64,000 nt of DNA from contig NZ_CP109327.1 in NCBI RefSeq assembly GCF_035918155.1, positions 4,960,001 through 5,024,000 on the forward strand. The letters are read 5' to 3'. Origin of the DNA: Streptomyces sp. NBC_01591 (lineage in GTDB: Bacteria; Actinomycetota; Actinomycetes; Streptomycetales; Streptomycetaceae). The translations under genes and the position numbers were made by a program. Below the pieces are notes generated by a model that worked only from the letters and a program-made list of their open reading frames with translations, made no database searches and was not told the origin of the DNA. Shown here one piece after another: positions 34,939 through 60,971 of this stretch (position 1 is the stretch's first letter; each line of letters begins with the position of its first letter).

Positions 34939-34953
34939 CTGACGGACAGTCAG
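34939..34953. promoter_or_regulatory. Operator A of the CTGACG regulon
   Basis: CTGACGGACAGTCAG matches CTGACGNNNCGTCAG with one mismatch. It lies 17 bases upstream of the CoA ligase start, so a bound repressor would cover its promoter or ribosome site. Confidence 0.65.
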
Positions 34954-35026
34954 ATAGTGCGGAGAGCGTAGAGCGCTGCGCCTTGTCGGTCCAGGGGTGC
35001 GGGGCTAGCCTGAGTTCGACGTCAAT

Positions 35027-35041
35027 CTGACGGGTCATCAG
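35027..35041. promoter_or_regulatory. Operator B of the CTGACG regulon
   Basis: CTGACGGGTCATCAG matches the same palindrome with one mismatch in the right arm. It is 25 bases upstream of the amidohydrolase ATG and 73 bases from operator A, so each divergent transcript has its own site. Confidence 0.65.
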
Positions 35042-35066
35042 AAAAGCGCGTGCCGAAGGGGACACC

Positions 35067-36272
35067 ATGACGGAACTGCCTCGGATCGTCAGCGTCGACG
35101 ACCATGTGATCGAGCCGCCGCACCTCTTCTCGACCTGGCTGCCCGCCAAATACCGCGAGCGCGGCCCGCAGCCGCTCACCGCGGGCATCGGCGAGCTGGC
35201 GTACACGGGCGGCAAGTACGTCATCACGATGGATCCGGACGGCCCGCCCACCGACTGGTGGATCTACGAGGACCTGAAGTTCCCGTACAAGCGCAACATC
35301 GCCGCCGTCGGCTTCGACCGCGACGACATGACGCTGGAGGGGATCACCCGGGCGGAGATGCGGCCCGGCTGCTGGGACCCGGCCGAGCGGCTCAAGGACA
35401 TGGACCTCAACCACGTCGAGGCCAGCCTCTGCTTCCCGACCTTCCCGCGCTTCTGCGGCCAGACCTTCGCCGAGGCCCAGGACAAAGAGGTGGCGGTTGC
35501 GTGTGTCCGCGCCTACAACGACTGGATGGTGGAGGAGTGGTGCGGCGACAGCGGCGGCCGGCTGATCCCGCTCTGCATCATCCCGCTCTGGGACATCGAC
35601 CTGGCCGTCGCCGAGATCAGGCGGAACGCGGCGCGCGGGGTGCGGGCGGTGACCTTCTCGGAGATCCCCACCTACCTCGGGCTGCCGTCGATCCACACCG
35701 GCTACTGGGACCCGTTCTTCGCCGTCTGTCAGGAGACCGGCACGGTCGTGAACATGCACATCGGGTCCAGCTCGCAGATGCCCGCCGCGTCGCCGGACGC
35801 CCCGCCCGCCGTACAGGCCAGCCTCTCCTTCAACAACGCCATGGCCTCGATGATGGACTTCCTGTTCAGCGGGGTCCTGGTGAAGTTCCCCCGGCTGAAG
35901 CTCGCCTACAGCGAGGGCCAGATGGGCTGGATCCCGTACGCCCTGGAGCGTGCCGACGACGTCTGGGAGGAGCACCGGGCCTGGGGCGGGGTGCGCGATC
36001 TGATCCCCGAGCCGCCGTCCACGTACTACTACCGGCAGATGTTCTGCTGCTTCTTCCGCGACAGGCACGGCGTCGCCTCGCTCGACGTCGTCGGACGGGA
36101 CAACGCCACCTTCGAGACCGACTACCCGCACGTCGACTCGACCTTCCCGCACACCAAGGAGGTCGCCCTCGACCACGTCAAGGGACTGGACGACGAGACC
36201 GTCTACAAACTGATGCGCGGAAACGCGATCAGGATGCTCGGTCTCGACCTGGACATGGACCGCGAGAAGTAG
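35067..36272 (+). CDS. Amidohydrolase family protein (ACMSD-like)
   Basis: This 401-residue TIM-barrel protein belongs to amidohydrolase family 2. It has the N-terminal metal motif VDDHVIEPPHLF (here D-H in place of H-x-H), a MHIGSSSQM segment in mid-barrel, KLAYSEGQMGWIPYALERAD, and the metal-binding Asp in FETDYPHVDSTFPHTKEV. Family members decarboxylate or hydrolyse cyclic or aromatic acids; several in actinomycete steroid and acid clusters have unassigned reactions. ATG 35067 follows AAGGGGA. First gene of an operon with two acyl-CoA dehydrogenase genes. Confidence 0.85.
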   Translation: MTELPRIVSVDDHVIEPPHLFSTWLPAKYRERGPQPLTAGIGELAYTGGKYVITMDPDGPPTDWWIYEDLKFPYKRNIAAVGFDRDDMTLEGITRAEMRPGCWDPAERLKDMDLNHVEASLCFPTFPRFCGQTFAEAQDKEVAVACVRAYNDWMVEEWCGDSGGRLIPLCIIPLWDIDLAVAEIRRNAARGVRAVTFSEIPTYLGLPSIHTGYWDPFFAVCQETGTVVNMHIGSSSQMPAASPDAPPAVQASLSFNNAMASMMDFLFSGVLVKFPRLKLAYSEGQMGWIPYALERADDVWEEHRAWGGVRDLIPEPPSTYYYRQMFCCFFRDRHGVASLDVVGRDNATFETDYPHVDSTFPHTKEVALDHVKGLDDETVYKLMRGNAIRMLGLDLDMDREK

Positions 36273-36279
36273 GCGCGCG

Positions 36280-37443
36280 ATGGACCTCGCGTACACGGAG
36301 GAGGAGCAGGAGTTCCGGGCGCGGCTGCGCGAGTGGCTGGCCGCCGTGCTCCCCGGGCTGCCCGCGAAGCCCGGCCCCGACGACTGGCCGGGGCGCCGCG
36401 CGTACGACACGGCCTGGCAGCGGATGCTGTACGACGCGGGCTACGCGGGTCTGCACTGGCCCGTCGACGCGGGCGGCCGGGGCGCGACCCCGACCCAGCA
36501 CCTGATCTTCCTGGAGGAGACGGAGCGGGCCGGGGCCCCGTACGTCGGCGCGAACTTCGTCGGGCTGCTGCACGCCGGACCGACGATCGCGGCCGAGGGC
36601 ACGGCCGAGCAGCGGGCGCGCTGGCTGCCGCCGGTGCTGCGCGGCGACGAGATCTGGTGCCAGGGGTTCAGCGAACCCGACGCCGGTTCGGACCTCGCCG
36701 CGCTGCGGACCAGGGCGGTGCGCGACGGCGACCACTACGTGGTGAGCGGCAGCAAGATCTGGACCTCGCACGCGGAGGTCGCCGACTGGTGCGAGCTCCT
36801 GGTGCGTACCGACCCGGCGGCGCCCAGGCACCGCGGGATCAGCTGGCTCGCGATGGAGATGGATGCCCCGGGGGTCACCGTCCGCCCGCTGCGCACCCTC
36901 GCCGGGTCCACCGAGTTCGCCGAGATGTTCCTGGACGAGGTGCGGGTGCCGGTCTCCCACCGCGTCGGCGCGGAGAACGACGGCTGGCGGGTCACCATGG
37001 TCACCCTCTCCTTCGAGCGCGGTACGGCCTTCGTCGGCGAGGTCGTCGCCTGCCGCCGCACCCTGGACGCGCTGGCGGCCGAGGCCCGGCGCAGCGGACG
37101 CTGGGACGATCCGGTGCTGCGCCGCAGGCTGGGCAGGCTGAACGCCGAATTCCGGGCGCTGTGGCGGCTCACCCAGTGGAACGTCAGCGAGGCACAGCGG
37201 GCCGGGGGCGGCGGTGGCGTGCCCGGAACAGGCGGCTCGGTCTTCAAGCTGCGTTACTCGCACGCCCGCCAGGAGCTGTACGAGGCGGCGGCCGAGGTAC
37301 TCGGCGCGGACAGCGCGGATCTGGACCGGGAGTGGGTCCTGGACCGGCTCTCCTCGCTCTCGTACACCATCGCCGCGGGCACCTCGCAGATCCAGCGGAA
37401 CATCGTCGCCGAACGCATACTCGGCCTGCCGAAGGGGCGCTGA
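36280..37443 (+). CDS. Acyl-CoA dehydrogenase, large subunit of a probable heteromeric enzyme
   Basis: The 387-residue protein carries the FAD/substrate motif CQGFSEPDAGSDLAALRT, SKIWTSHAEVADWCELLVRT, and a C-terminal TIAAGTSQIQRNIVAERILG that supplies FAD contacts. It begins seven bases after the amidohydrolase stop and is followed at seven bases by a shorter paralogue. Such long-short pairs form alpha2-beta2 heterotetramers in actinobacterial steroid side-chain catabolism, each chain contributing part of the active site. This suggests a bulky or cyclic acyl-CoA substrate. Confidence 0.87.
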   Translation: MDLAYTEEEQEFRARLREWLAAVLPGLPAKPGPDDWPGRRAYDTAWQRMLYDAGYAGLHWPVDAGGRGATPTQHLIFLEETERAGAPYVGANFVGLLHAGPTIAAEGTAEQRARWLPPVLRGDEIWCQGFSEPDAGSDLAALRTRAVRDGDHYVVSGSKIWTSHAEVADWCELLVRTDPAAPRHRGISWLAMEMDAPGVTVRPLRTLAGSTEFAEMFLDEVRVPVSHRVGAENDGWRVTMVTLSFERGTAFVGEVVACRRTLDALAAEARRSGRWDDPVLRRRLGRLNAEFRALWRLTQWNVSEAQRAGGGGGVPGTGGSVFKLRYSHARQELYEAAAEVLGADSADLDREWVLDRLSSLSYTIAAGTSQIQRNIVAERILGLPKGR

Positions 37444-37450
37444 CGCACTC

Positions 37451-38404
37451 ATGGACTTCCAGCTCTCGGACGACCAGCGGGCCCTGCGGGCCGGGGTGCG
37501 GGAACTTCTCGCCGGGCGCTTCGGCAGGGACCGGATGCGGGCCGCGCTCGACGCCGGTACCGGCGTCGACCGGGCGCTGTGGCGGGAGCTCGGCGAAGCC
37601 GGGTTCTTCGCGCTGCGGCTGCCGGAGGCGGAGGGGGGCGTCGGTCTCGGGCTGCCCGAATCGGTCCTGCTCTTCGAGGAGGTGGGGCGTTCGCTGCTGC
37701 CGGGACCACTGATCGCCACCCACCTCGCGGCCGGCCCGGTGAAGGGCGCGGCGCAGGGCGAGGCGGTGGTCGCGGTGCTCGACGCCGGGCAGCCGGTGGC
37801 GCACCTGGGGGAGGCGGACGCGCTGCTCGTACTCGGCCCCGGAAACGCGGCGCGGGCGTCCGGCGGCACGGTGCGGGACGCCGTACGGGTACGGGACGCC
37901 GCCGATCCCGTACGTTCGATCGACCCGTTCACGCCCCTGTGGCGGGTCGCGGACCCTGTGGAGGGCGGCGAGCCGCTGCCCCGGGGCGAGCGGCTGCGCG
38001 ACGAGGGCGCCCTGCTCGCCGCCGCCGAACAGCTCGGCAGCGCCGCCCGGACGACCGAGATGGCCGTCCAACACGCCGGTGAGCGCGAACAGTTCGGATC
38101 GCCGATCGGGTCCTTCCAGGCGGTCAAACACCTGTGCGCCGGGATGCTGGTCCGCGCCGAACTGGCCCGCTGCGCCGTGTACGCGGCGGCCGTGACCGCG
38201 GACCCGGTCGAGATCGCGGGCGCCAAACTGCTGGCCGACGACGCGGCGGTCCGCAACGCCCGGGACTGCCTCCAGGTGCACGGCGGCATGGGCTTCACCT
38301 GGGAGGCAGATGTTCACCTGCACCTCAAACGGGCCTGGCTGCGGTCCGGGCAGTGGCTGGCGGCCGCTGCGGCCGAGGAGGTGCTTGCGGGGGACCTGTG
38401 CTGA
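37451..38404 (+). CDS. Short acyl-CoA dehydrogenase-like subunit
   Basis: At 317 residues this protein is about 70 shorter than a complete acyl-CoA dehydrogenase. It has the N-terminal helices (FQLSDDQRALRAGVRELLAG), a reduced middle domain lacking the usual EPDAGSD motif, and a C-terminal domain with HAGEREQFGSPIGSFQAVKH and the catalytic-base/FAD region CLQVHGGMGFTWEADVHLHL. This is the pattern of the partner subunit in heterotetrameric dehydrogenases. Seven-base spacing to the gene before supports complex formation. On its own it would probably not bind FAD well. Confidence 0.85.
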   Translation: MDFQLSDDQRALRAGVRELLAGRFGRDRMRAALDAGTGVDRALWRELGEAGFFALRLPEAEGGVGLGLPESVLLFEEVGRSLLPGPLIATHLAAGPVKGAAQGEAVVAVLDAGQPVAHLGEADALLVLGPGNAARASGGTVRDAVRVRDAADPVRSIDPFTPLWRVADPVEGGEPLPRGERLRDEGALLAAAEQLGSAARTTEMAVQHAGEREQFGSPIGSFQAVKHLCAGMLVRAELARCAVYAAAVTADPVEIAGAKLLADDAAVRNARDCLQVHGGMGFTWEADVHLHLKRAWLRSGQWLAAAAAEEVLAGDLC

Positions 38405-38921
38405 AGCCGGACGGGTTCCGTGCAGGCTTCCGGCGCCCGGCAGCGGGCGAATGCCTGGCGCACGCATGTGACAGGCAGGGGTAGGAGCCTCACGCTGCGG
38501 AGTTACGCAGTGCAGTCGGTGAGCGCGTGCCCCGGCTCACGTCCTTCACGTCATTCGTCACGGGCCGGAGTCGGCGCCGGGCTCGGGTACGCTCCGTTGG
38601 ATGCGACAGGAACTGGAACCGGATGATCCGGGTGTTGCCGGTGTGGCGACTCCGGCCCGGGAGCGGTGCCCTGCTCGCGTTCCAGGCAGAAGCGCCGGGC
38701 GTGCCCGGGAGGCGGCTCCCGCGGCCTCGATGCGCCTCTGTTCGACTCCCCGCAGCGCGCGTCGCACAGTATGCACCACGCGTACTCCTTCGCGATGGAA
38801 TATGCCCGAAGCGCTTGTTGCGGTGACTGTACGTCAACCATGCTGTCTCGTAAGGGAATCACGTTCCGTGACCCTGAGGAGGCGCGAGGCGATGTGTCCG
38901 CCGGTTCGGATGGTGTGAGCG
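38405..38921. other. Gap without a supported gene
   Basis: These 517 bases hold several open frames on both strands with no conserved motif and atypical codon use (for example an ATG frame 38601-38918 that ends just before the next gene). I see no operator or clear terminator. A promoter for the next gene should lie near its right end. Confidence 0.4.
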
Positions 38922-39461
38922 GTGCAGGTGCTTCAGGTTCAGCTGGAGGTCGGGCCGGATCCCGCGGAGGTCGGGCGGGCCCGTAGATGGGCCCGGTCGA
39001 GACTGGTCGGGTCCGGGATAAGGGACGACGAGCCGCTGGCCGAGACGCTCATCCTGCTGATCTCGGAGCTGGTCACCAATGCGGTGGTGCACACCGGGTG
39101 TCCGGCCGTGCTGCGCATGCTGTTCGGCCTGACGGGCTCGGCCGGGACCGTCCGGGTCGAGGTGGCCGACACCAGTTGTCGCCCGCCGCAGCAGCGCCAC
39201 GCGGCGGGCGAGGACACCAACGGCCGGGGCCTGGAGCTGGTCGACGGCCTCGCCGACCGCTGGGGCTGGCAGCCGGAGGGCGCGGGCAAGCGCATCTGGT
39301 GCGAGGTCGACCGGGGCGCGCCACTGATCCAGGTGCCGCTGCACTCCGGCGTGCAGGGCGTGCACGGTGTCGCGCAGGGCGTGCACGGTGTCGCGCAGGG
39401 CGCGGGGTATGCGGGCCACGATGCGCACAAGGTGTCGCAAGTCTTTACGAACCTTGCATAA
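38922..39461 (+). CDS. RsbW/SpoIIAB-like ATP-binding protein (histidine kinase-type ATPase)
   Basis: The 179-residue protein has a GHKL ATPase fold: N-box ISELVTNAVVHT, G1 box VEVADTS, and G2 region GRGLELVDGLADRWG. Proteins of this size in Streptomyces are anti-sigma or regulatory kinases that work with STAS proteins such as that at 32373. A stop codon at 38916 fixes the start at GTG 38922 or later. After the ATPase domain a tail contains two exact 21-bp repeats (39356-39397) coding for the heptad QGVHGVA and may be recently expanded. Confidence 0.8.
   Translation: MQVLQVQLEVGPDPAEVGRARRWARSRLVGSGIRDDEPLAETLILLISELVTNAVVHTGCPAVLRMLFGLTGSAGTVRVEVADTSCRPPQQRHAAGEDTNGRGLELVDGLADRWGWQPEGAGKRIWCEVDRGAPLIQVPLHSGVQGVHGVAQGVHGVAQGAGYAGHDAHKVSQVFTNLA
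39356..39397 (+). repeat. Two exact 21-bp tandem repeats inside the ATPase gene tail
   Basis: GGGCGTGCACGGTGTCGCGC plus A occurs at 39356-39376 and again at 39377-39397, with part of a third copy on each side. The unit is a multiple of three, so copy changes keep the frame. Confidence 0.9.
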
Positions 39462-39487
39462 AGGTTGAAGCAGTTGCTCCCGGCGAA

Positions 39488-40414: not shown

Positions 40415-40460
40415 GGCGCCTCCTGGGGCTTGTGCTCGTGGACCTGATGGCACATAAAAT

Positions 40461-40475
40461 CTAACGGTCCGTCAG
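40461..40475. promoter_or_regulatory. Operator C of the CTGACG regulon
   Basis: CTAACGGTCCGTCAG fits CTGACGNNNCGTCAG with one mismatch. It sits in the 83-base gap between divergent cyclase and SDR genes, 22 bases before the SDR ATG. Confidence 0.65.
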
Positions 40476-40497
40476 AAACCGCGGGAAGGGGCCGGGC

Positions 40498-41412
40498 ATG
40501 GGGAACTTCTTGGCAGGCAAGGTGGTGGCCGTGACGGGTGCCGGTCGCGGCATCGGGCGGGCGGTCGCGCTCGCGGCGGCGGCCGAGGGGGCGAGGGTCG
40601 TCGTCAACGACTACGGCGTCTCCGTCGAGGGCGGCGAGCCGAGCAGCGAGGTGGCCGAGTCGGTCGTCAAGGAGATCGAGGCGGCGGGCGGCGAGGCGGT
40701 GGCGGTCGCCGACGACATCTCCACGATGGCGGGCGGCCAGCGGATCGTGGACACGGCGCTCGCGCGGTTCGGGCGGATCGACGGGGTCGTCTGCGTGGCC
40801 GGGATCCTGCGGGAGCGGATGCTGTTCAACATGTCCGAGGAGGAGTGGGACCCGGTGGTCGCCACCCACCTCAAGGGCACCTTCACCGTCTTCCGGGCCG
40901 CGTCGGCGGTGATGCGCAAGCAGGAGGGCGGCGGCACGCTGATCGGCTTCACCAGCGGCAACCACCAGGGCAGCGTCGCCCAGGCCAACTACAGCGCCGC
41001 GAAGGGCGGGATCATCTCGCTGGTACGGAGCGCGGCGCTCGGCCTGCACAAGTACGGCGTCACGGCGAACGCCGTCGCCCCGGTCGCCCGTACCCGGATG
41101 TCCGCCAACGTGCCCATGGAGCTCAAGGAGATCGGCGAGCCGGAGGACGTGGCGGCGCTCGTCGTCTACCTGCTCAGCGAACGGGCCCGCGAGGAGAAGA
41201 TCACCGGCCAGGTGTACACGGTCGCGGGGCCGAAGATCGCGGTCTGGGCCCAGCCGAGGGAGCTGCGGGCCGGGTACGTCGAGGGGGCCTGGACCCCGGA
41301 ACGGATCGCGGACTTCCTGCCGGGGACGGTGGGCACGGACCCGATGCCGATGCTGGCGCGACTGGAGGAGATGGCCGCGGCGGCCGCGGCGAAGGCCCGG
41401 CCGAACGCGTGA
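40498..41412 (+). CDS. Short-chain dehydrogenase/reductase
   Basis: The 304-residue enzyme has the Rossmann nucleotide motif VTGAGRGIGRAVALA at the start, DDISTMAGGQRIVDTAL, and the catalytic Tyr-x3-Lys in QANYSAAKGGIIS. Length and the C-terminal extension after GQVYTVAGPKIAVWAQPREL resemble 3-oxoacyl-CoA or multifunctional MaoC-type partners of beta-oxidation (FabG/HSD17B4-like). It would oxidise a 3-hydroxyacyl-CoA to the 3-oxo form with NAD. First gene of an operon SDR, acyl-CoA dehydrogenase, Zn-alcohol dehydrogenase. Confidence 0.88.
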   Translation: MGNFLAGKVVAVTGAGRGIGRAVALAAAAEGARVVVNDYGVSVEGGEPSSEVAESVVKEIEAAGGEAVAVADDISTMAGGQRIVDTALARFGRIDGVVCVAGILRERMLFNMSEEEWDPVVATHLKGTFTVFRAASAVMRKQEGGGTLIGFTSGNHQGSVAQANYSAAKGGIISLVRSAALGLHKYGVTANAVAPVARTRMSANVPMELKEIGEPEDVAALVVYLLSERAREEKITGQVYTVAGPKIAVWAQPRELRAGYVEGAWTPERIADFLPGTVGTDPMPMLARLEEMAAAAAAKARPNA

Positions 41413-41474: not shown

Positions 41475-42671
41475 GTGGACTTCAGCTTCGGCCCCGACGA
41501 CACCGCGTTCCGCGAGGAAGCGCGCGCCTGGCTGGCGGCGCACCTGGTCGGCGCGTACGCGGCGGCGGCCGGCACCGGCGGCCCCGGCAGCGAGCACGAG
41601 GGAGTCGCGGTCCGCCGCGCCTGGGAGCGCGAACTCGGCCGCGACGGCTGGATCGGCCTCGGCTGGGACAACCACGGCGCCGGCCACGGCAACCGCCGCG
41701 CGAGCCTCACCCAGCAGGTCGTCTGGGCCGAGGAGTACGCCCGCGCCGACGCCCCCGCCCGGGTCGGCCACATCGGCGAGAACCTCCTCGCCCCGACCCT
41801 GATCGCCTACGGCAGCGACGAACAGCAGCGCCGCTTCCTGCCCGCCGTGGCACGCGGCGACGCGCTCTGGTGCCAGGGATACAGCGAGCCGGACGCCGGA
41901 TCGGACCTCGCCGCGGTGCGCACGGCGGCCGTGCCCGACCGGAGCCGCGGCGGCCACCGAGTGACCGGGCAGAAGATCTGGACGTCACTCGCGAAGGAGG
42001 CCGACTGGTGCTTCGTGCTGGCCCGTACGGGGCCCGGCTCCAGCCGCCACCACGGCCTGTCCTTCCTGCTCGTACCGATGGACCAGCCCGGCAGGATCGA
42101 GGTCCGGCCGATCCGTCAGATGTCGGGGACCAGCGAGTTCAACGAGGTCTTCTTCGACGGGGCGCACGCCGAGGAGTGCGTCGGCGGCGAGGGCAACGGC
42201 TGGACGGTTGCCATGGGGCTGCTGGCCCTGGAGCGCGGCGTCTCCACGCTCGTCCAGCAGATCGGCTTCGCCGCCGAACTCGGCCGGGTGGTCCGGGCGG
42301 CCGTCGACAGCGGCGCCGTCACCGACCCGGTCCTGCGCGAACGCCTCGTACGGCAGTGGGCCCAGCTGCGGACCATGCGCTGGAACGCCCTGCGCACCCT
42401 CGGCTCCACGGGCGACCCCGGCGCGCCCAGTGTGGCGAAACTGCTCTGGGGCGGCTGGCACCAGCGCCTGGGCGAGCTGGCCGTGCAGGTCAGGGGCGCG
42501 GCGGCGGCCGTCGGCCCGGACGACTGGTCGGCGAAGGCACCGTACGGACTCGACGAGGCACAGCGCCTGTTCCTGTTCACCCGGTCCGACACCATCTACG
42601 GCGGCTCGGACGAGATCCAGCGGAACATCATCGCCGAGCGGGTGCTCGGCCTACCGAGGGAGCCGAGATGA
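41475..42671 (+). CDS. Acyl-CoA dehydrogenase
   Basis: This 398-residue dehydrogenase carries CQGYSEPDAGSDLAAVRT, QKIWTSLAKEADWCFVLART, a substrate-pocket segment EVRPIRQMSGTSEFNEVFFD, and the C-terminal SDTIYGGSDEIQRNIIAERV. The GTG at 41475 follows CAGGAGG. It overlaps the next gene start by four bases. It is similar in style to the dehydrogenase at 36280 and may act one round later or on a related ester. Confidence 0.88.
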   Translation: MDFSFGPDDTAFREEARAWLAAHLVGAYAAAAGTGGPGSEHEGVAVRRAWERELGRDGWIGLGWDNHGAGHGNRRASLTQQVVWAEEYARADAPARVGHIGENLLAPTLIAYGSDEQQRRFLPAVARGDALWCQGYSEPDAGSDLAAVRTAAVPDRSRGGHRVTGQKIWTSLAKEADWCFVLARTGPGSSRHHGLSFLLVPMDQPGRIEVRPIRQMSGTSEFNEVFFDGAHAEECVGGEGNGWTVAMGLLALERGVSTLVQQIGFAAELGRVVRAAVDSGAVTDPVLRERLVRQWAQLRTMRWNALRTLGSTGDPGAPSVAKLLWGGWHQRLGELAVQVRGAAAAVGPDDWSAKAPYGLDEAQRLFLFTRSDTIYGGSDEIQRNIIAERVLGLPREPR

Positions 42672-43717
42672 GAGGCGTCGTCTTCGACGGCAAGCGGACC
42701 GAGGTCGTCGACGATCTGGAGATACGCGATCCGGGCCCCGGCGAGGTGCTGGTGGCGGTGGCCGCGGCGGGGCTGTGCCACAGCGACCTCTCGGTGATCG
42801 ACGGGACGATCCCGTTCCCGTCGCCGGTGGTGCTCGGACACGAGGGTGCGGGCGTGGTCGAGGCGGTCGGCGCGGGTGTCGCCCATGTGGCGCCCGGCGA
42901 CCACGTCTCGCTGTCCACGCTGGCCAACTGCGGGGCGTGCGCCCAGTGCGACCGGGGGCGCCCGACCATGTGCCGCAAGGCGATCGGGATGCCGGGGCAG
43001 CCGTTCGCGCGGCGCGGGAAGCCGCTGTACCAGTTCGCGTCCAACTCGGCCTTCGCCGAACGGACCCTGGTCAAGGCCGTGCAGGCGGTGAAAATCCCGG
43101 CGGACATCCCGCTGACCTCCGCGGCCCTGATCGGCTGCGGGGTGCTGACGGGAGTCGGAGCCGTACTCAACCGGGCGAAGGTCGACCGGGGCGACTCGGT
43201 CGTGGTGATCGGTACCGGCGGCATCGGGCTCAACGTGATCCAGGGCGCCCGGATCGCGGGCGCGCTGACGATCGTCGCCGTCGACGCCAACCCGGCGAAG
43301 GAGGCGGCGGCCCGGCAGTTCGGCGCGACGCACTTCCTGACGTCGGCGGACGGTGTGCGGGACATCCTGCCCGGCGGCGCCGACCACGCCTTCGAGTGCG
43401 TGGGCCGTACGGAACTGATCCGGACCGCGATCGACCTGCTGGACCGGCACGGCCAGGCGATCCTGCTGGGCGTCCCGGCGGCGACGGCGGAGGCGTCGTT
43501 CCTCGTCTCGGCGATGTACCTGGACAAGTCGATCCTGGGCTGCCGGTACGGCTCCTCGCGACCGCAGCGGGACATCGCGCTCTACGCGGAGCTGTACCGG
43601 GAGGGCCGGCTGCTCCTGGACGAACTCGTCACCACCACCTACCCGGTGGAGGACTTCGCCAAGGCGGCGGACGACGCGCACCACGGCCGGGTGGCGCGGG
43701 GGGTGCTGGTGTTCTGA
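42668..43717 (+). CDS. Zinc-dependent alcohol dehydrogenase (class III-like)
   Basis: The 349-residue protein has the catalytic zinc ligands in AGLCHSDLSVIDG and VLGHEGAGVVEAVGAG, the structural zinc lobe CGACAQCDRGRPTMC and the coenzyme motif VIGTGGIGLNVIQGARIAGA. It oxidises a primary or secondary alcohol with NAD(P). Sequence style resembles the Rxyl_3153 and mycothiol-dependent branch of the class III group. Coupled to the preceding dehydrogenase (ATGA overlap), it is part of the operon under operator C. Confidence 0.9.
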   Translation: MRGVVFDGKRTEVVDDLEIRDPGPGEVLVAVAAAGLCHSDLSVIDGTIPFPSPVVLGHEGAGVVEAVGAGVAHVAPGDHVSLSTLANCGACAQCDRGRPTMCRKAIGMPGQPFARRGKPLYQFASNSAFAERTLVKAVQAVKIPADIPLTSAALIGCGVLTGVGAVLNRAKVDRGDSVVVIGTGGIGLNVIQGARIAGALTIVAVDANPAKEAAARQFGATHFLTSADGVRDILPGGADHAFECVGRTELIRTAIDLLDRHGQAILLGVPAATAEASFLVSAMYLDKSILGCRYGSSRPQRDIALYAELYREGRLLLDELVTTTYPVEDFAKAADDAHHGRVARGVLVF

Positions 43718-43729
43718 GCGCGCGGCCTT

Positions 43730-49231: not shown

Positions 49232-50131
49232 ATGACTGGGGGGAATGTGTTCGAGATCGACGCGCTGCGTCTGCTGGTGACGGTGGCCGAAGCCGGATCG
49301 TTCACGAAGGCCGCGGCCCGGCTCGACTACACGCAGTCGGCGGTGTCCCGGCGCATCGCCTCGCTGGAGAAGGAGTCGGGCGGGCCGCTCTTCGAACGGC
49401 TCGCCCGGGGCGTACGGCTGAATCCGGCCGGCCACGCGCTGCACCGGCACGCGGTGGAAGTGCTCGCGCGGCTGGTGAGCGCGGAACACGAGATGGCCGT
49501 GATCCGTGCCGGGCGGGGCGGGCGGCTGCGGGTGGGGGCGTTCGCCACGGCCAATGTCTCGTTGGTGCCCGCCGCGCTGCGGGCGTTCGCCCGGGCAAGA
49601 CCGGATGTCGAGGTCGTCGCGGTCGAGGGCCGGACCGGTGAGTCGATGCGGCGCCTGGCGGACGGGGCGCTCGACCTGGCCGTGGTCAGCGACTACCCGT
49701 CCGGTCTGCCGCCGGTCGACGCCGTCACGACCGAGGTGCTGCTGGCGGACGAGCTGTTCGTCGTCCTCCCCCGCGACCACCGCCTGGCCGGATCCGGGAC
49801 GATCGATCTGCGCGAACTGCGCGACGAGACCTGGCTCCAGGACGTCTCCACCGACCGGCCCATGATGCTCGCCGAGGTCTGCGGCCGGGCCGGCTTCCGG
49901 CCGAAGCGGATCACCAGGATCGCCGAGTGGACCGGCAAGTTCGGCTATGCGGCCGCCGGGCTGGGGGTGGCGCTGGTGCCCTCGCTGGCCGCCTGGGCGG
50001 TCCCCGCCGAACTCGCCGTCTGCCGGCTCGGCGACCTCGCCCCGCGCCGGACCGTACATGTGGCGCTGCCCGCCGACCCGCTCCCGGCGGCACTGGAACT
50101 ACGGGATCTGCTGCGTGAGGCGGCCGGCTGA
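49232..50131 (+). CDS. LysR family transcriptional regulator
   Basis: This 299-residue regulator has the LysR helix-turn-helix (ALRLLVTVAEAGSFTKAAAR, YTQSAVSRRIASLEKESGGP) and a type 2 periplasmic-binding effector domain (LRVGAFATANVSLVPAALRA, LDLAVVSDYPSG). LysR proteins usually control the divergent gene, here the DUF6585 protein, and themselves. ATG 49232 lacks a clear ribosome site; GTG 49247 may be used instead. The effector is unknown. Confidence 0.9.
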   Translation: MTGGNVFEIDALRLLVTVAEAGSFTKAAARLDYTQSAVSRRIASLEKESGGPLFERLARGVRLNPAGHALHRHAVEVLARLVSAEHEMAVIRAGRGGRLRVGAFATANVSLVPAALRAFARARPDVEVVAVEGRTGESMRRLADGALDLAVVSDYPSGLPPVDAVTTEVLLADELFVVLPRDHRLAGSGTIDLRELRDETWLQDVSTDRPMMLAEVCGRAGFRPKRITRIAEWTGKFGYAAAGLGVALVPSLAAWAVPAELAVCRLGDLAPRRTVHVALPADPLPAALELRDLLREAAG

Positions 50132-50169: not shown

Positions 50170-50799
50170 TCAGCCGTCGAGCGGCCCGAACCGCCCGAAC
50201 GTCCCCCGGTGGAACAGCAGCGGATCGGACCCGTCCACCGCGCCCATCGCTTCCACCCGGCCGACGACGATCAGATGGTCACCCCCGGTGTGGACGGCCT
50301 GGATGCGGCAGTCGATCCAGGCCGGTACGGAGTCCAGCAGCGGCGATCCGGTCGCCGGGGCGGCCTCGTACGCCACCCCCGCGAACTTGTCCGAGCCGCT
50401 CACCGCGAAGCTCCGGCACAGTGCGCCCTGGTCCGCGCCGAGGATGTTGACGCAGAAGGCCCCGGCGCGCGCGATGCGCGGCCAGGTCGTCGACGTACGG
50501 GCGACCATGAACGTGATCAGCGGCGGGTCGAGGGAGAGCGAGGCGAACGACTGGCAGGCGAAGCCCGCCGGGCCCTGTACGTCGTCCGGGGCGTGTGCGG
50601 TGACGACGGTGACGCCGCTGGCGAAATGCCCCAGTACGCGGCGGAATTCGCCCGGGTCGACGGGTGGCCGCTCACCGTCGGCGACCGCTCGCAGTTCGGG
50701 GCGCGGCAGCGGATCGACCGGCGCCGGCCCTGCGGTCGTGGCGGCGCCGACGGACCTGAGGTACCGGACGGCGATGGCGGCCATGCCTGCGTGTCCCAT
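50170..50799 (-). CDS. Flavin reductase family protein (monooxygenase reductase component)
   Basis: The protein of about 209 residues has the FMN-binding split-barrel domain: FRRVLGHFASGVTVVTAHAP, GFACQSFASLSLDPPLITFM, AFCVNILGADQGALCRSFA and a late GGDHLIVVGRVEAM. Such reductases supply reduced flavin to two-component monooxygenases, for example HsaB in steroid ring opening. Operator D lies 17 bases before ATG 50799, so it belongs to the CTGACG regulon. No oxygenase partner of the acyl-CoA dehydrogenase type is adjacent. ATG 50784 and GTG 50802 are alternative starts. Confidence 0.85.
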   Translation of the reverse strand: MGHAGMAAIAVRYLRSVGAATTAGPAPVDPLPRPELRAVADGERPPVDPGEFRRVLGHFASGVTVVTAHAPDDVQGPAGFACQSFASLSLDPPLITFMVARTSTTWPRIARAGAFCVNILGADQGALCRSFAVSGSDKFAGVAYEAAPATGSPLLDSVPAWIDCRIQAVHTGGDHLIVVGRVEAMGAVDGSDPLLFHRGTFGRFGPLDG

Positions 50800-50815: not shown

Positions 50816-50830
50816 CTGACGGTACGTCAG
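50816..50830. promoter_or_regulatory. Operator D of the CTGACG regulon
   Basis: CTGACGGTACGTCAG is a perfect match to CTGACGNNNCGTCAG and a perfect palindrome. It lies between the flavin reductase gene and the remains of a divergent SDR start. Confidence 0.72.
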
Positions 50831-54962: not shown

Positions 54963-55526
54963 ATGACCAGTGCGCACGACTACAGCCAGGGCATCGATTC
55001 CGAACGCGCTCTGAAGTTCGCGGTGCAGCGGATCCGCGGAGACCGCGCCCAGATCATCGAAGGGATCATCGAGCCCGTGACGCCGACCTGGGACCACGAA
55101 CGGGCGGCCCGAGTCGTCCGTCGGCAGATCGAGGACCGCGTGGACGAACTCGGCTGCGTCGAGGGCTCGGGCAACCTGGACCTGCCCGGTTCGTCGAACT
55201 GGTACGTCCCCGACATCGCCGTCGTGCCCGAGGAGCTGGCGAAGGGCGGCGGCGCCCTGCTCCCCGATCAGACCCTGCTCGTAGTGGAGGTCACCTCGGA
55301 GTCGAACGCGGAGACCGACCGCGTCGTGAAGCGGCGACGCTACGCCGAGTACCGCGCCCCGCTGTACCTCCTCGTCGACCGGATCGAGGGCAGCGTGACC
55401 CTGTTCTCCGAGCCCGGCCACCTGGGCTACACCCACGTGGACGGCCCGCACCCGTTCGGTGCGGTTCTGAGGCTGCCGCATCCGTTCGACCTGGACCTGC
55501 ACACCAACGGCCTGTCACCCGCGTGA
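54963..55526 (+). CDS. Uma2 family protein (PD-(D/E)XK nuclease fold)
   Basis: The 187-residue protein matches the Uma2 family, which is expanded in Streptomyces and cyanobacteria. The nuclease core is visible as YVPDIAVVP (Asp), LLVVEVTSES (Glu and the usual Lys replaced) and KRRRYAEYRAPLYLLVD. Members are predicted restriction-like endonucleases, but the biology is unknown. A second, internally deleted Uma2 gene occurs at 59316. ATG 54963 follows GGGAGGAG. Confidence 0.85.
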   Translation: MTSAHDYSQGIDSERALKFAVQRIRGDRAQIIEGIIEPVTPTWDHERAARVVRRQIEDRVDELGCVEGSGNLDLPGSSNWYVPDIAVVPEELAKGGGALLPDQTLLVVEVTSESNAETDRVVKRRRYAEYRAPLYLLVDRIEGSVTLFSEPGHLGYTHVDGPHPFGAVLRLPHPFDLDLHTNGLSPA

Positions 55527-55539
55527 CCGCCCGAAGAAC

Positions 55540-56379
55540 CTAGACCCCCCGGTACTTCGGCACTCGTCGCTCCACGAAGCTCGCCACGCCCTCATTGGCG
55601 TCCTGTGTCGTCATGTTGATCTCCTGGGCCATGGCCTCGGCGGCGAAGGCCGTCGGCCGGTCGGCATCCATCGACGCGTTGACGAGCTGCTTGGTCAGGG
55701 CGATCGCACGGGTCGGCCCCTCGGCCAGCCGCTGCGCCCACGACCGCGCCGTCGCCGCCAACTCCCCGTCCGGTACGACGCGGTTGACCAGTCCCAGGCG
55801 TTCCGCCTCCGCCGCCGGCAGCGAGTCCCCGAAGAACATCAGCTCCTTGGCGCGCTGCGGGCCGATCAGCCGCGGCAGCAGATACGCACCGCCGCCGTCG
55901 GGCACGAGACCACGGCGTACGAACACCTCGATGAACTTCGCCGATTCGGCGGCCAGCACCAGATCGCAGGCGAACGCGAGATGGGCGCCGATACCGGCCG
56001 CCGTGCCGTTGACGGCCGCGACGACGGGCTTCTCGCAGTCCAGGACCGCGGCGATCAGACGCTGCGCGCCGAGCCGGATCGTACGGGCCACATCGCCCGG
56101 CACCCGCTCGCCGGTCGCCGGGGCACCGCGCAGGTCGGCGCCCGCGCAGAAACCGCGGCCGGTGGCGGTGAGGACGACGGCCCGGACCGCCGGGTCTGCG
56201 GAGGCCTCGGCGAGCAGGCCGATGAGGCGGTCCCGCTGCTCCCAGGTGACGGCGTTCATCGCTTCGGGACGGTTGAGCGTGATCCAGGAGACGCCGTTGT
56301 CAGTGGTGTGGAGTACCAATGAATGGAGCGGGTCGGCGGACTCGACGGACTCGGTGATGTCTTCGGGGGAGGACGGCAT
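55540..56379 (-). CDS. Enoyl-CoA hydratase/isomerase family protein
   Basis: The 279-residue crotonase has the oxyanion-hole motifs GRGFCAGADLRGAP and NGTAAGIGAHLAFACD, and the catalytic-Glu region FVRRGLVPDGGGAYLLPRLI, where Asp/Gly replace one of the two glutamates of classic hydratases. ATG 56379 follows CAGGAGC. It lies 82 bases downstream of the acyl-CoA synthetase gene on the same strand and should be co-transcribed from operators E and F. Isomerase or ring-hydrolase activity is possible as well as hydration. Confidence 0.88.
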   Translation of the reverse strand: MPSSPEDITESVESADPLHSLVLHTTDNGVSWITLNRPEAMNAVTWEQRDRLIGLLAEASADPAVRAVVLTATGRGFCAGADLRGAPATGERVPGDVARTIRLGAQRLIAAVLDCEKPVVAAVNGTAAGIGAHLAFACDLVLAAESAKFIEVFVRRGLVPDGGGAYLLPRLIGPQRAKELMFFGDSLPAAEAERLGLVNRVVPDGELAATARSWAQRLAEGPTRAIALTKQLVNASMDADRPTAFAAEAMAQEINMTTQDANEGVASFVERRVPKYRGV

Positions 56380-56461
56380 GGGACAGCTCCTGGGTGGACG
56401 CGGTGGTGGACGCGGTGATGGGCACGATGGCGAGCGATTCGGGCGATGGCGGTGCGACCGG

Positions 56462-58693
56462 TCAGCGGCAGACGGCGAGCGCGTCCAGCGCCACCGCGCC
56501 CTGCCCCCGCCCGAGCACCATCAGCGGGTTGATGTCCAGCTCGGCGAGGTCGTCGCCCAGTTCCAGCGCCATCCGCTGTACCCGCAGCACGACCTCCACG
56601 AGCGCGTCCACATCCACCGGCGGACCGCCGCGTACGCCCTCCAGCAGGGCCCGGCCGCGCAGTTCGCCCAGCATCGACCGCGCCTGGTCCTCGCCGAACG
56701 GCGGCACCCGCACCGCCGCGTCGTGCAGCACCTCGACCAGCACACCGCCGAGCCCGACCGTCACCGTCGGCCCGAACAGCGCGTCCTGCGTGACGCCGAC
56801 CATCATCTCGACGCCCCGCTCGACCATCTGGCAGACCAGGATCCCGTCCAGCTCGATGCCCTCGAACCGCGCGATGTCGGTCAGCTCGCGGTACGCGTCC
56901 CGCACCTGGCTCGCGGAGGTGAGCCCGACCTTGACCAGGCCCAGTTCGGTCTTGTGGGCGAGCCGGGCGCCCGACGCCTTCATGACCACCGGGTAGCCGA
57001 CCAGCGCCGCGGCCCGGACGGACGCCGCGGCGCTGGTCACCAACTGCTCGCGCGGTACGCGGATTCCGTACGCCCGCAGCAGCTGCTTCGCCGCGTGCTC
57101 GCTCAGCTGCTGGCCCGGACGCATCAGTGCCTGCGCCTTGCGGAACGAGGGCGAAGGCGTGCGGGGCGCCTCGTCGAAGGGGGAGCGGTAGGAAGCGGCG
57201 AACCGGTGGTGGTCCAGGTAGGCCTTCACGGCGGTGATGCAGTTGCCGAAGGTACGGAAGGTGGCGACGCGGGACGAGCCGAGCAGCGTCGTGCGGTACG
57301 CCTCCTCCGTACCGACGGGCGAGCCCCACACCACGCACACCAGCTTGTCCGTGGTCTCCGCCGCGTCCACCAGGTCCTGTGCGAGCTTGTCGCTCATCGG
57401 GGGGAAGGGGCCGGTGATCGGACAGATCAGCACCCCGACGTCGGGGTCGGCGAGTATCGCGTCGATGATCTTCCGGCCGCGCCAGTCGCCGACCGGATGG
57501 CCGCCGTTGTCGACCGGGTTCGCCACGTTCAGATAGCCGGGAATCCACTCGTGCAGCTCGCGCTGCTTCGCCTCGGACAGGGTGGGCAGGCTCAGCCCCG
57601 CGCCGGTCGCCAGGTCCGAGAAGTGCGCGCCCGTGCCGCCCGAGATCGAATACACGACGACCCCTTCGGCCTGCGGCTTCCGTGCCCGCGCGAGCAGGGC
57701 CGCGGTGTCCTGGAGTTCGTCGAGCCCGTCCACCCGGATCACACCGAACTGCCGCATCGCCGCGTCCACCACCTGGTCGGCGCCGGTCAGCTTGCCGGTG
57801 TGTGACGCGGCCATCCTGGCCCCCGTCTCCGTACGCCCCACCTTGACCGCCACGACCGGAACCCCGGCCCGCGCCGCCCGGTCCGCGGCCAGCAGAAAGG
57901 AGCGCCCGTCCTTGAGTCCCTCCACGTAGCAGGCGATGGCCCCGACCTCGGGCCGCTGCGAGAAGTACGAGATGAAGTCGGCGGTCTCCAGATCCGCCTC
58001 GTTGCCCGTGGGTGCCCAGTGCGAGAGCCGTACACCCAGCTCCTGAAGGGTGTAGACGGGGCGGCCCTGGTGGCCGGACTGGGTGATCAGCGCGATGGCC
58101 GGCCCGTCCAGATCGTCCCGGAACCTCTCGAAGGCGTTGAGGTTGGTGTTCGGCCCGAGCAGCCGCAGCCCGGACCGTTCCACCGCCGCGGCCAGCCGCG
58201 CCTGGGCGGCGGCGCCCTCCTCACCGGTCTCGGCGAATCCGGAGGCGAAGGCGACGGCGAACCGCACCTTGGCCTGCGCGAGTTCCTCGATCACCGGGAG
58301 CGGATCGCCGACCAGCAGCACAGCCAGATCGACCTGTTCGGGCAGTTCGGCGACGGAAGGGGAACAGGCCCGCCCGAACACGGACTCCCGGGTGGGATGC
58401 ACGGGATACAGCCGCGCCCCGACCCGCTCGGCCCAGCCGATCAGCTGTCGGGTGATGCCGGTGTTGGGCCGCCCCTCGGTGTCGGACGCGCCGATGACGG
58501 CCACGGACCCGGGCCGGAAGAACCGGTCCAGATCCGGCACGGCCGCGTGCAGCGGCCGGCCGCTGACGTCCAGGACGCACTCCGTGGCGGCATCGACCGT
58601 CATGCTGTGGACGGCGGCATGCGGCTCTTCGCCGCAGGCCACCACCCTGGCGCGGAAGTCGGTGGTGAGGGTGCCGTGAGTCGATCCAAGCAT
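56462..58693 (-). CDS. Acetate-CoA ligase (ADP-forming)-type acyl-CoA synthetase, fused subunits
   Basis: The 743-residue protein fuses the alpha and beta parts of NDP-forming acyl-CoA synthetases. In order: CoA-binding Rossmann domain (FFRPGSVAVIGASDTEGRPN), succinyl-CoA-ligase-like flavodoxin domain with GPAIALITQSGHQGRPV, a second such domain with YSISGGTGAHFSDLA, and a C-terminal ATP-grasp (GYPVVMKASGARLAHKTELG, LDINPLMVLGRGQGAVALD). It interconverts an acyl-CoA and its acid with ADP/ATP. Two CTGACG operators lie 58 and 82 bases before ATG 58693. It forms an operon with the crotonase gene downstream. Confidence 0.87.
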   Translation of the reverse strand: MLGSTHGTLTTDFRARVVACGEEPHAAVHSMTVDAATECVLDVSGRPLHAAVPDLDRFFRPGSVAVIGASDTEGRPNTGITRQLIGWAERVGARLYPVHPTRESVFGRACSPSVAELPEQVDLAVLLVGDPLPVIEELAQAKVRFAVAFASGFAETGEEGAAAQARLAAAVERSGLRLLGPNTNLNAFERFRDDLDGPAIALITQSGHQGRPVYTLQELGVRLSHWAPTGNEADLETADFISYFSQRPEVGAIACYVEGLKDGRSFLLAADRAARAGVPVVAVKVGRTETGARMAASHTGKLTGADQVVDAAMRQFGVIRVDGLDELQDTAALLARARKPQAEGVVVYSISGGTGAHFSDLATGAGLSLPTLSEAKQRELHEWIPGYLNVANPVDNGGHPVGDWRGRKIIDAILADPDVGVLICPITGPFPPMSDKLAQDLVDAAETTDKLVCVVWGSPVGTEEAYRTTLLGSSRVATFRTFGNCITAVKAYLDHHRFAASYRSPFDEAPRTPSPSFRKAQALMRPGQQLSEHAAKQLLRAYGIRVPREQLVTSAAASVRAAALVGYPVVMKASGARLAHKTELGLVKVGLTSASQVRDAYRELTDIARFEGIELDGILVCQMVERGVEMMVGVTQDALFGPTVTVGLGGVLVEVLHDAAVRVPPFGEDQARSMLGELRGRALLEGVRGGPPVDVDALVEVVLRVQRMALELGDDLAELDINPLMVLGRGQGAVALDALAVCR

Positions 58694-58750
58694 CGTTCCG
58701 CCCACTCCTGGTCGGGGTCCGTCGGGTGATCGTGCCCGGCCAGCCCAAAG

Positions 58751-58765
58751 CTGACGCTCTGTCAG
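58751..58765. promoter_or_regulatory. Operator E of the CTGACG regulon
   Basis: CTGACGCTCTGTCAG matches CTGACGNNNCGTCAG with one mismatch, 58 bases upstream of the acyl-CoA synthetase start. Confidence 0.65.
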
Positions 58766-58774
58766 GTTACTGAA

Positions 58775-58789
58775 CTGACGGCGCGTCAG
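58775..58789. promoter_or_regulatory. Operator F of the CTGACG regulon
   Basis: CTGACGGCGCGTCAG is a perfect match. It starts 24 bases from the start of operator E, slightly more than two helical turns, so two repressor dimers could bind on nearly the same face of the DNA. Confidence 0.72.
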
Positions 58790-58795
58790 GAATGG

Positions 58796-59266
58796 GTGTG
58801 CAGGCAAAGGCTGAGAGAGGGAGTGCGGCGGCGGCCGGGGCCGTACAACTTCCGGGTGATCTTGAACGTCCAACGGTCGGGCCGGAGACACCGGCCGTCG
58901 TTCGCCATCGCCGCCGGTCTCCTGGCAGACCTGCGACGCCACGAGCCCCGGCTGTTGCTCGGCGAGGAGGACATCCGCCGACTGGCCCCCGCCGTCGCCG
59001 CCTGGTTCGAACGCGACGCTCACCCCGATGCCGTACGCCGCACCCTCGTCGCTGACCTGCCCGAATCGCTGACACGCCCGGCGGGCCTCCTCGCCCACCG
59101 CCTCAGGGCGCTCCTGCCGCCACCACTGCCCACCACGGCCCCGGCTGAGGAAGCCGCGCCGTGCCGTGACCCTCTCCAGAACTGCGACGGCTGCGACCGG
59201 GCCTTCCGGGCTCCGGAGCCCGGCCACTGCCGCGAGTGCCGAACCGACCTGAAGGAGGCCGCCTAG
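58796..59266 (+). pseudogene. 5'-truncated helix-turn-helix protein remnant
   Basis: The frame ends with a well-preserved domain: FAIAAGLLADLRRHEPRLLL, EDIRRLAPAVAAWFERDAHP, RPAGLLAHRLRALLPPPLP, and a Cys-rich tail NCDGCDRAFRAPEPGHCREC. This is the C-terminal half of a family of Streptomyces helix-turn-helix proteins of about 250 residues, recognised from memory. The N-terminal DNA-binding half is missing; upstream sequence already belongs to the synthetase promoter. The frame is open from GTG 58796, but there is no good ribosome site. Confidence 0.5.
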
Positions 59267-59315
59267 CATGAACGTGACGACCCTTGCCCCCAGGCACAGA
59301 CGAGGAGCGCACGCC

Positions 59316-59582
59316 ATGGCCAACGCCCCGGACCACGCACAGCGGGATTCGCTCCACTACCGGGCCATGCGCGACATCATCGAGCAGATGCAGGACGACG
59401 TTCCCGGAAAGTTCGAGATCACCAAAGAAGGGATCGTGCACGACATGATGGCTCCGGGGCGTCCCCACGAGACGACGCCGGACGGCCCGCGCTACGCGAT
59501 CCGCAAGGACTTCGTGTACGGCGAGGACGTCACCATCGGTGAGTGGACGATCTCGACCGACGGGCTGCCGCTGTACGCCTGA
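59316..59582 (+). pseudogene. Uma2 family gene with an internal in-frame deletion
   Basis: The 88-residue product joins the normal N-terminus of a Streptomyces Uma2 protein (YRAMRDIIEQMQDDVPGKFE, EGIVHDMMAPGRPHE) directly to its normal C-terminus (TPDGPRYAIRKDFVYGEDVT, then GEWTISTDGLPLY). The catalytic middle of about 90-100 residues, with the PD and E-x-K motifs, is missing. The reading frame stays open, so a small protein could still be made, but it cannot be a nuclease. ATG 59316 follows GAGGAG. The assignment is by comparison with remembered family members. Confidence 0.65.
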
Positions 59583-59612
59583 TGCCCACGGGCAGGCCCG
59601 CCCCGCGCGGTA

Positions 59613-60800
59613 TCAGCCCCGGCGTGCCAGCCGCTTCGCGATCTTCCTCGCGTCCAGGGCCAGTTCGCGCAGCATGCCGCTGATCGGGTTGGTGAAGCCG
59701 GTGAAGTACAGGCCGGGGGCCTGCTTGGGGGTGCGGGCGCCGTGGACCACCGGCCGGCCCCGGGCGTCCAGTACGTCGAGGTGGCCGACCAGGCCCTCCA
59801 GGGCGCGCCGGTAGCCGGTCGCCGCGATCACCGCGTCCGGGTTGATCCGCTCGCCGCCGGCCAGCACCACCGCGTCCCCGTCGAACGACTCGACGGCCGC
59901 CACCGGCACCACCCGGCCGCGCTTCACCGCGTCGATCAGCCCCACGTCCTGCACCGGGATCGCGCCGTCCTTGACCCGTGAGTACAGACCGGTGTCCGGA
60001 CGGGGGAGGCCCTGCGCGGTGAGGTCGGGCACGGCAGCCCTGGCCATCAGGCGCCCGGCCCGGTCGACCAGCCGGACCGGCAGCCTGCGTACCAGGATGC
60101 CGGTCAACTGCGCGGGCCAGCCCGCCGTCGAGCGGCGCACGATGTGCGGCACGGTGCGCACGGCGATCCGGACCCGGGACGCCCCACCCTCGACCAGGTC
60201 GACGGCGATCTCCGCGCCCGTGTTGCCGATGCCGACGACCAGGACGTCCTTGCCCGCATACGGGGCGGGGTTGCGGTAGTCGGAGGCGTGGACCAGATCG
60301 CCGGTGAAGGTGTCGAGGCCGGACCAGTCGGGGATGCGCGGGGTGTGGTTGAAGCCGGTGGCGACGACGACCGCCCGGCCGGTCAGCACCCGGCCGCCGG
60401 TCGCGGTCAACTGCCAGCTCCTGCCGTCCGGGGCGCGGTCGATCCGGGACACCTCGACGCCCGTCACCACCTCCAGCTCATGGTGCTCGGCGTACTTGTC
60501 CAGATAGCGCACCACATCGTCCCTGGACACCCAGCGCCCGAACCGGCGCGGCATCGCGAGCCCCGGCAGCGCGGACCGGCTCCGGGTCGTGTGGAGGTGC
60601 AGCCGGTCGTAGTGGCGGCGCCAGGACGCGCCCACGTTCCCGGACTTCTCCAGCACGACCGCCCGTACGCCCTGCTCGCGCAGGGCCGCCGCGGCGGCGA
60701 GGCCGCCCGGACCGCCACCGATGACGTATACGGGCCGGTCCTCGGTGAGGTCGCTCGGGGCCGATATGGGGATACCGGCGGTAAGTGCACTGTCGGACAT
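59613..60800 (-). CDS. FAD-dependent monooxygenase (class B, FMO/BVMO-like)
   Basis: The 395-residue flavoprotein has the FAD motif VYVIGGGPGGLAAAAALREQ, the FMO signature FTGDLVHASDY (F-x-G-x3-H-x3-Y) and the NADPH motif VLVVGIGNTGAEIAVDL. It is of the short YUC/FMO type and could oxygenate a ketone (Baeyer-Villiger) or a heteroatom. Its promoter region is shared with the divergent DoxX gene and contains operator G, 157 bases upstream. Ketone-to-ester oxidation would fit the catabolic gene set; this is inference. Confidence 0.87.
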   Translation of the reverse strand: MSDSALTAGIPISAPSDLTEDRPVYVIGGGPGGLAAAAALREQGVRAVVLEKSGNVGASWRRHYDRLHLHTTRSRSALPGLAMPRRFGRWVSRDDVVRYLDKYAEHHELEVVTGVEVSRIDRAPDGRSWQLTATGGRVLTGRAVVVATGFNHTPRIPDWSGLDTFTGDLVHASDYRNPAPYAGKDVLVVGIGNTGAEIAVDLVEGGASRVRIAVRTVPHIVRRSTAGWPAQLTGILVRRLPVRLVDRAGRLMARAAVPDLTAQGLPRPDTGLYSRVKDGAIPVQDVGLIDAVKRGRVVPVAAVESFDGDAVVLAGGERINPDAVIAATGYRRALEGLVGHLDVLDARGRPVVHGARTPKQAPGLYFTGFTNPISGMLRELALDARKIAKRLARRG

Positions 60801-60956
60801 GGTTCGGAGCGTAATCGCGCCCCCGGTTGATGGGTCTCGGTCAAGACCGGAATCGATTGCGAATTGATCACGGGTGTGCGCTTTTCGTTCGCCTCGCGGC
60901 CGCCTCTTGCGCACTCCTTGCACGCCTCTTGCGCGACTCGCCTGCCATCGGGTGAA

Positions 60957-60971
60957 CTGACGTACCGTCAG
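60957..60971. promoter_or_regulatory. Operator G of the CTGACG regulon
   Basis: CTGACGTACCGTCAG is a perfect match. It lies in the 202-base divergent region between the monooxygenase and DoxX genes, 32 bases before the DoxX ATG. Confidence 0.72.

Follow-up and report, generated by a model that had tools for sequence, protein, structure and literature searches.

A conserved 15-bp palindrome and the TetR-type protein predicted to read it in a catabolic regulon of Streptomyces sp. NBC_01591

A stretch of 64,000 nucleotides from Streptomyces sp. NBC_01591 (contig NZ_CP109327.1; G000:C1:4960001-5024000 in the 10.25-Mb genome), hereafter the window, carries seven copies of a 15-bp palindrome in front of genes for catabolic enzymes, which raises the question of what protein reads these copies and whether they belong to one regulon. 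With the adjoining 40 kb also examined, the palindrome is very probably the operator of a single TetR protein of 215 aa, which would govern the catabolic island, dispersed catabolic promoters and its own gene, and which would be released from the DNA as a repressor by a pathway intermediate. The finding is real and is that of a well conserved TetR catabolic regulon. No earlier name or description of it was found in a literature search conducted largely without subscription papers and bioRxiv, so an earlier report is possible, and the exact motif strings did not occur among the literature matches listed.

The operator consensus is CTGACGNNNCGTCAG, with the extended form ATCTGACG-NNN-CGTCAGAT. 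A scan of the window at up to one mismatch gave exactly seven sites, of which three are perfect and four deviate at one base, at the positions which the original prediction had read by eye. These predicted operator sites are found at 34939..34953 (CTGACGGACAGTCAG, one mismatch), 16 bp upstream of a coenzyme A (CoA) ligase gene on the minus strand; at 35027..35041 (CTGACGGGTCATCAG, one mismatch), 25 bp upstream of an amidohydrolase gene; at 40461..40475 (CTAACGGTCCGTCAG, one mismatch), between genes for a cyclase (minus strand) and a short-chain dehydrogenase/reductase (SDR, plus strand); at 50816..50830 (perfect), 16 bp upstream of a flavin reductase gene; at 58751..58765 (one mismatch), 57 bp upstream of a gene for an ADP-forming acyl-CoA synthetase, with a perfect copy at 58775..58789, 9 bp from it; and at 60957..60971 (perfect), between a monooxygenase gene (minus strand) and an operon for a DoxX-like and an oligonucleotide/oligosaccharide-binding (OB) fold protein (plus strand). 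This number is far beyond chance, with 100 dinucleotide shuffles of the window giving a mean of 0.47 sites, a maximum of three and not one case of seven or more. At up to two mismatches the window has no clear excess (13 sites against a shuffle mean of 8.24, with 11 of 100 shuffles reaching 13), and two-mismatch sites are used here only at the start of the TetR gene and in the promoters of relatives. The promoter placement proposed originally also holds by our own gene calls, all seven sites being intergenic and upstream of a catabolic gene, with at least one start codon within 16-81 bp of each. These start codons belong to genes for the CoA ligase, an Amidohydro_2 protein, the SDR and cyclase, an HsaB-like flavin reductase, the ADP-forming acyl-CoA synthetase and the DoxX-like protein, while that of the monooxygenase is 156 bp from site 60957.

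The regulator had been guessed to be of the TetR type and to be encoded away from the sites. The former is supported and the latter is not borne out, as a gene for a 215-aa TetR protein (P0001; C1:5030573-5031220, minus strand; L077:6573-7220) lies 6.6 kb beyond the end of the window; from its near end to a further site, at window-extended position 68675, is approximately 1.9 kb. The protein possesses an N-terminal helix-turn-helix (PF00440, TetR_N, 26.7 bits against a cut-off of 24) and a helical ligand/dimer domain (PF19352, E-value 5e-74), and its predicted structure has the TetR fold (predicted local distance difference test score, pLDDT, 90.8). Its start codon lies within CTGACGGCATGACAG, a degenerate site with two mismatches. 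The original prediction had suggested looking for a TetR gene with the motif at its own promoter, and a site with up to two mismatches is present at the TetR start in 128 of 129 Streptomyces loci (drawn from two sets, with species overlap possible) and in eight of ten loci of genus g3 in family f3 (f3-g3), but in none of the four loci of f3-g4 and f3-g5, the control giving none in all four groups. Families f14 and f16 have relatives of the protein that are 45-51% identical, and here too the TetR start carries a site with up to two mismatches, in a different context, in all seven genomes examined. The gene is present in all 37 genus-g1 genomes of one comparison (73-100% identity). Around it in named Streptomyces (the best 80 of 494 loci found by protein alone), 258 sites were counted in 1.39 Mb versus nine for the reversed control; 246 of these are no more than 300 bp upstream of a called gene, nine only inside genes and three in neither position, so that around the TetR gene the motif is not equally frequent inside genes.

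Conservation in orthologous promoters, the other expectation of the original prediction, is likewise apparent. A site with up to one mismatch was found upstream in 30 of 30 amidohydrolase loci (two paralogs), 27 of 27 SDR loci and 22 of 30 flavin-reductase loci (17 of 18 for close orthologs, 5 of 12 for distant ones), while the reversed control at the looser limit of two mismatches gave 1 of 30, 8 of 27 and 0 of 30, respectively. The amidohydrolase loci were taken from 36 matches and comprised 18 close orthologs and 12 of the paralog at extended 85006, the flavin-reductase loci were taken from 35 matches, and the SDR matches were all examined. Certain one-mismatch variants are retained among relatives whose spacers differ: the CATCAG half-site of 35027 is kept in 13 of 18 close amidohydrolase promoters and the form CTAACGGNCCGTCAG (CTAACG) in all 18 genus-g1 SDR promoters, and a second, distal site with up to one mismatch, the counterpart of 34939, is present in 15 of the 18 close amidohydrolase promoters. 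In named Streptomyces, one or both of sites 58751 and 58775 recur upstream of the acyl-CoA synthetase ortholog, and site 60957 recurs at orthologous positions. After removal of sites inside genes, 24 of 69 entries from the genome itself have a relative (E-value of 1e-25 or lower) adjoining a site in another genome set, some of these relatives being only 32-42% identical and within large superfamilies. An alignment of sites, preselected at up to one mismatch and with duplicate rows dropped, shows a tendency for AT to be added on both flanks, subject to bias from the anchoring; the conservation of its fixed bases is also biased, and the promoter-locus counts are therefore relied on instead.

The motif also accompanies the regulator across genomes. 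In a set of 61, an ortholog (61-100% identity, partial in one case) is present in 51, which hold 2-32 perfect copies; the other ten hold 0-2. Among 197 genomes of the class, 35 have a TetR relative at an E-value of 1e-30 or lower, with perfect copies numbering 1-20 in family f1, 6-14 in f16, 1-6 in f20, 3 in f14 and 109-218 in f15, while the 162 without a listed relative have 0-5, except G200 with ten; only some candidates were scored per genome, and orthologs can therefore be missed. Four of five f16 genomes without a listed ortholog have 0-1 copies. In G038, six of nine perfect sites are within 22 kb of the TetR gene. In the f3-g3 loci, an SDR-like and a CoA-ligase-like gene (by eye) flank the TetR gene. 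Degenerate sites occur there both at the start of the TetR gene and ahead of the ligase-like one, and in most of these loci a site of 0-1 mismatches precedes the next gene. Genome G202 belongs to g68, the genus of three ortholog-bearing f20 genomes, and two of its five sites precede luciferase-like/aldehyde-dehydrogenase-like and amidohydrolase-like genes (by eye). In f14 and f16 the TetR gene adjoins a pair of SDR-like and echA20-like genes, with a site at the echA20-like promoter in six of seven genomes. In G086 (L350) this pair is followed by CoA-transferase subunits matching chains A and B of 6co6, which we take to be IpdAB (E-values 3e-95 and 6e-73). A FabK-like protein is also encoded in the G086 cluster, and IpdC is reported as FabK-like in PMC5380842.

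The island extends 21 kb beyond the window end with four further promoter sites, at window-extended 68548 (thiolase), 68675 (acyl-CoA dehydrogenase), 78868 (thiolase/CoA ligase) and 84979 (second amidohydrolase), giving eleven in all from 34939 to 84979; another match at extended 94205 falls inside a called gene. Dispersed promoter sites occur at C1:2764126, 2769614, 2782612, 2814580, 3269757, 3788537, 3823430-3825399 and 4517817, beside genes for luciferase-like, SDR, MaoC and cytochrome P450 proteins (domain search) and for acyl-CoA dehydrogenase-, thiolase- and CoA-ligase-like proteins (by eye). The genome scan that had been suggested gave a mixed outcome. There is an excess over the reversed pattern, both at up to one mismatch (121 versus 62) and for perfect sites (10 versus 4), but 46 of the 121 sites are inside genes, the remainder being co-directional (39), divergent (26), convergent (9) or at an edge (1). 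Eight of the ten perfect sites are upstream of a called gene, one is inside a nonribosomal peptide synthetase (NRPS)-like gene and one is intergenic. In the relative G014, 30 of 32 perfect sites were examined: 13 precede a gene, 13 are inside one and four are in neither position. The motif alone therefore overpredicts and is a weak predictor outside the island.

A few observations from the genome scan stand apart. A perfect and a one-mismatch copy (C1:550289 and 553463) lie inside one gene of 2247 aa, NRPS-like by eye. At C1:4855847, a one-mismatch site lies 14 bp upstream of another gene that is TetR-like by eye (194 aa), with a gene of 396 aa, P450-like by eye, on its other side. One pair of one-mismatch sites recurs at both ends of the chromosome contig and at both ends of a 1.27-Mb contig, each time approximately 58 and 64 kb from the end, which suggests that the two contigs share terminal inverted repeats 64 kb or more in length.

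In the mechanism proposed, the TetR protein would bind as a dimer at the eleven island promoter sites, the dispersed catabolic promoters and its own start codon, and would repress them when substrate is lacking. A pathway intermediate, probably the CoA thioester of a ring-containing acid, would release it, so that CoA ligases, acyl-CoA dehydrogenases, thiolases, flavin enzymes and amidohydrolases would be induced together. The sequence shows the sites, where they lie, their conservation, the self-site and the co-occurrence with the regulator; binding, repression, ligand class and substrate are inferred. Several points weigh against this model. The self-site has two mismatches and sits in a stretch that is generally conserved in Streptomyces, and in all four f3-g4/g5 loci and two of the ten f3-g3 loci it has three mismatches. 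Outside the island about half of the sites with up to one mismatch look like background, and the related genomes compared are not independent. G200 (68% complete) has its ten copies without a listed ortholog, few candidates being scored per genome, while G072 and G081 have relatives of 43% identity and no copies. In f20 the copy numbers overlap, with 1-6 in genomes having the ortholog and 0-5 in those without a listed one, and the sole perfect copy of the ortholog-bearing G106 is inside a gene. Also against it are the f15 genomes (G063, G085, G103, G119 and G135; L313-L347), with 109-218 perfect copies of CTGACGNNNCGTCAG and 0-1 control matches, where the copies are frequent in genes although the f15 TetR relative shares the recognition segment.

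The f15 copies bear on the suggestion that the palindrome is an RNA hairpin or terminator, or a HIP1-like genomic repeat, which we consider highly improbable for Streptomyces. In G063 (the first 30 of 100 listed copies, 135 in all), 15 are inside genes, seven between convergent genes, with several overlapping the ends of these, five co-directional, two divergent and one at an edge; a looser scheme places nine of the 30 no more than 300 bp ahead of a gene. An enormous f15 regulon was set aside, as half of these copies are inside genes, and the f15 copies are perhaps a HIP1-like repeat or a methylation-linked palindrome, another phenomenon. The Streptomyces sites, on the other hand, precede the same genes with spacer and flanks free, and only nine of the 121 sites in the genome itself are between convergent genes. 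It is also very unlikely that another regulator of the island reads the sites, for example the LysR-like gene at 49232-50131 (named by eye), which is 685 bp from site 50816, as it is the TetR gene whose start retains a site and which accompanies the sites in other families.

Two further explanations are unlikely to a lesser degree. The palindrome might be an operator class common to several TetR proteins and so define no single regulon, a possibility to which we give little weight. It would account for the second TetR-like gene at C1:4855847, for the many sites outside the island, for the free spacer and for copy numbers in f20 that do not track the ortholog. However, in other genome sets the site is again found next to relatives of these genes (the 24 of 69 entries, some at superfamily level only), relatives without the ortholog are near background, f20 excepted, and in G122, G192 and G212, for which no ortholog is listed although they belong to f20, the nine perfect sites include none that precedes a clearly catabolic gene. 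That the TetR protein activates, or both activates and represses, from these sites is likewise unlikely: the nearest start codon is 57 bp away from one island site and 81 bp from another, and the sign of regulation is itself a prediction, but for the other nine of the eleven the distance is 4-39 bp. The best promoter-like hexamers end 11 bp (CoA ligase) and 15 bp (amidohydrolase) before the site, and that of the SDR gene ends directly at it, these being weak matches with no background computed. KstR2 is described in PMC3068626 as repressing at motif-to-start distances of 22-82 bp.

Within the window, the genes under these sites were assigned by gene call and domain search unless otherwise given. 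The CoA ligase, of the AMP-binding acyl-CoA type, is encoded at 33384..34922 (minus strand; NCBIfam matches below curated cut-offs). The Amidohydro_2 gene (35067..36272) is the first of a plus-strand run with two acyl-CoA dehydrogenases (36280..37443 and 37451..38404, the latter IpdE2-like below cut-off). The cyclase-family gene (PF04199; 39488..40414, minus strand) diverges from plus-strand genes for the SDR oxidoreductase (40498..41412), an acyl-CoA dehydrogenase (41475..42671) and a Zn-dependent alcohol dehydrogenase (42668..43717). On the minus strand are the HsaB-like flavin reductase (50170..50799; 193 bits, cut-off 230), the ADP-forming acyl-CoA synthetase (56462..58693) with a downstream gene (55540..56379; gene call only) which the original prediction named a crotonase, and the flavin-dependent, FMO-like monooxygenase (59613..60800). 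The DoxX-like membrane protein (61003..61455; 22.8 bits, cut-off 23.6) and a ChsH2-type OB-fold/zinc-ribbon protein (61452..61871) are on the plus strand. A second cluster at 836-11183, with carboxylase- and acyl-CoA-dehydrogenase-like genes by eye and a TetR-like gene at its end (10599-11183), has no motif copies at up to one mismatch. At window-extended -9700 to -3100, two short leader-peptide-like genes precede large modification- and transporter-like genes, having by eye the look of a ribosomal-peptide cluster.

A catabolic island of unrecognised substrate thereby gains a named regulator and operator along with a list of targets. Deletion of one small gene should turn on the whole island, making its substrate and products directly discoverable, and, since relatives of the regulator are linked to steroid-ring-like genes in other families, a broad and overlooked part of actinomycete carbon metabolism may be involved.

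Among known systems, the KstR2 regulon of mycobacteria and rhodococci, for catabolism of steroid rings C/D and of hexahydroindanedione propionate (HIP), likewise has an autoregulated TetR protein, a short palindrome, divergent catabolic promoters and acyl-CoA genes. The likeness extends to f14 and f16, with their site-bearing SDR-like/echA20-like pair and then CoA-transferase genes (identity searched in G086 only). PMC3068626 gives the Rv3549c-Rv3550 promoter as the corresponding KstR2 target, and has KstR2 controlling the ipdAB/ipdC/echA20 gene set in mycobacteria through another motif, AnCAAGnnCTTGnT. Together, these therefore give rise to the idea of regulator replacement. Tentatively, and as a less than even prospect, in actinomycetes that do not belong to the mycolic-acid group the PF19352 TetR lineage may be the general switch by which the CoA-dependent degradation of steroid- or terpenoid-like rings is controlled, holding the place of KstR2 in mycobacteria, including ipdAB/echA20-like genes in two families; in Streptomyces it might serve a dispersed luciferase-like/flavin/amidohydrolase/acyl-CoA network for an unrecognised polycyclic substrate. 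The two systems differ in operator, CTGACGNNNCGTCAG here as against the KstR2 motif (for which the window was not scanned), and in extent, with eleven island promoter sites plus the dispersed ones here and three for KstR2. Inspection by eye of the genes called in the island of this Streptomyces turned up no ipdAB-like genes, no search being made. Neither KstR nor KstR2 was seen among the 50 matches listed per fold search, which is no evidence either way.

The KstR system, for the cholesterol side chain and rings A/B, probably differs from the present one in regulator, operator and gene set. It is likewise a large TetR catabolic regulon (PMC1995591). EthR of Mycobacterium tuberculosis is approximately 18-20% identical to the TetR protein, which has the EthR fold, and probably has a different operator. 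No FMO gene adjoins the TetR gene here; approximately 10 kb separate it from the FMO-like gene at 59613-60800, the one with the site 156 bp upstream noted above. MftR, the mycofactocin regulator, is an actinobacterial TetR repressor induced by long-chain acyl-CoA, and differs from the protein described here in that, according to PMC8728441, its 27-bp operator is unrelated in sequence and lies in one promoter region.

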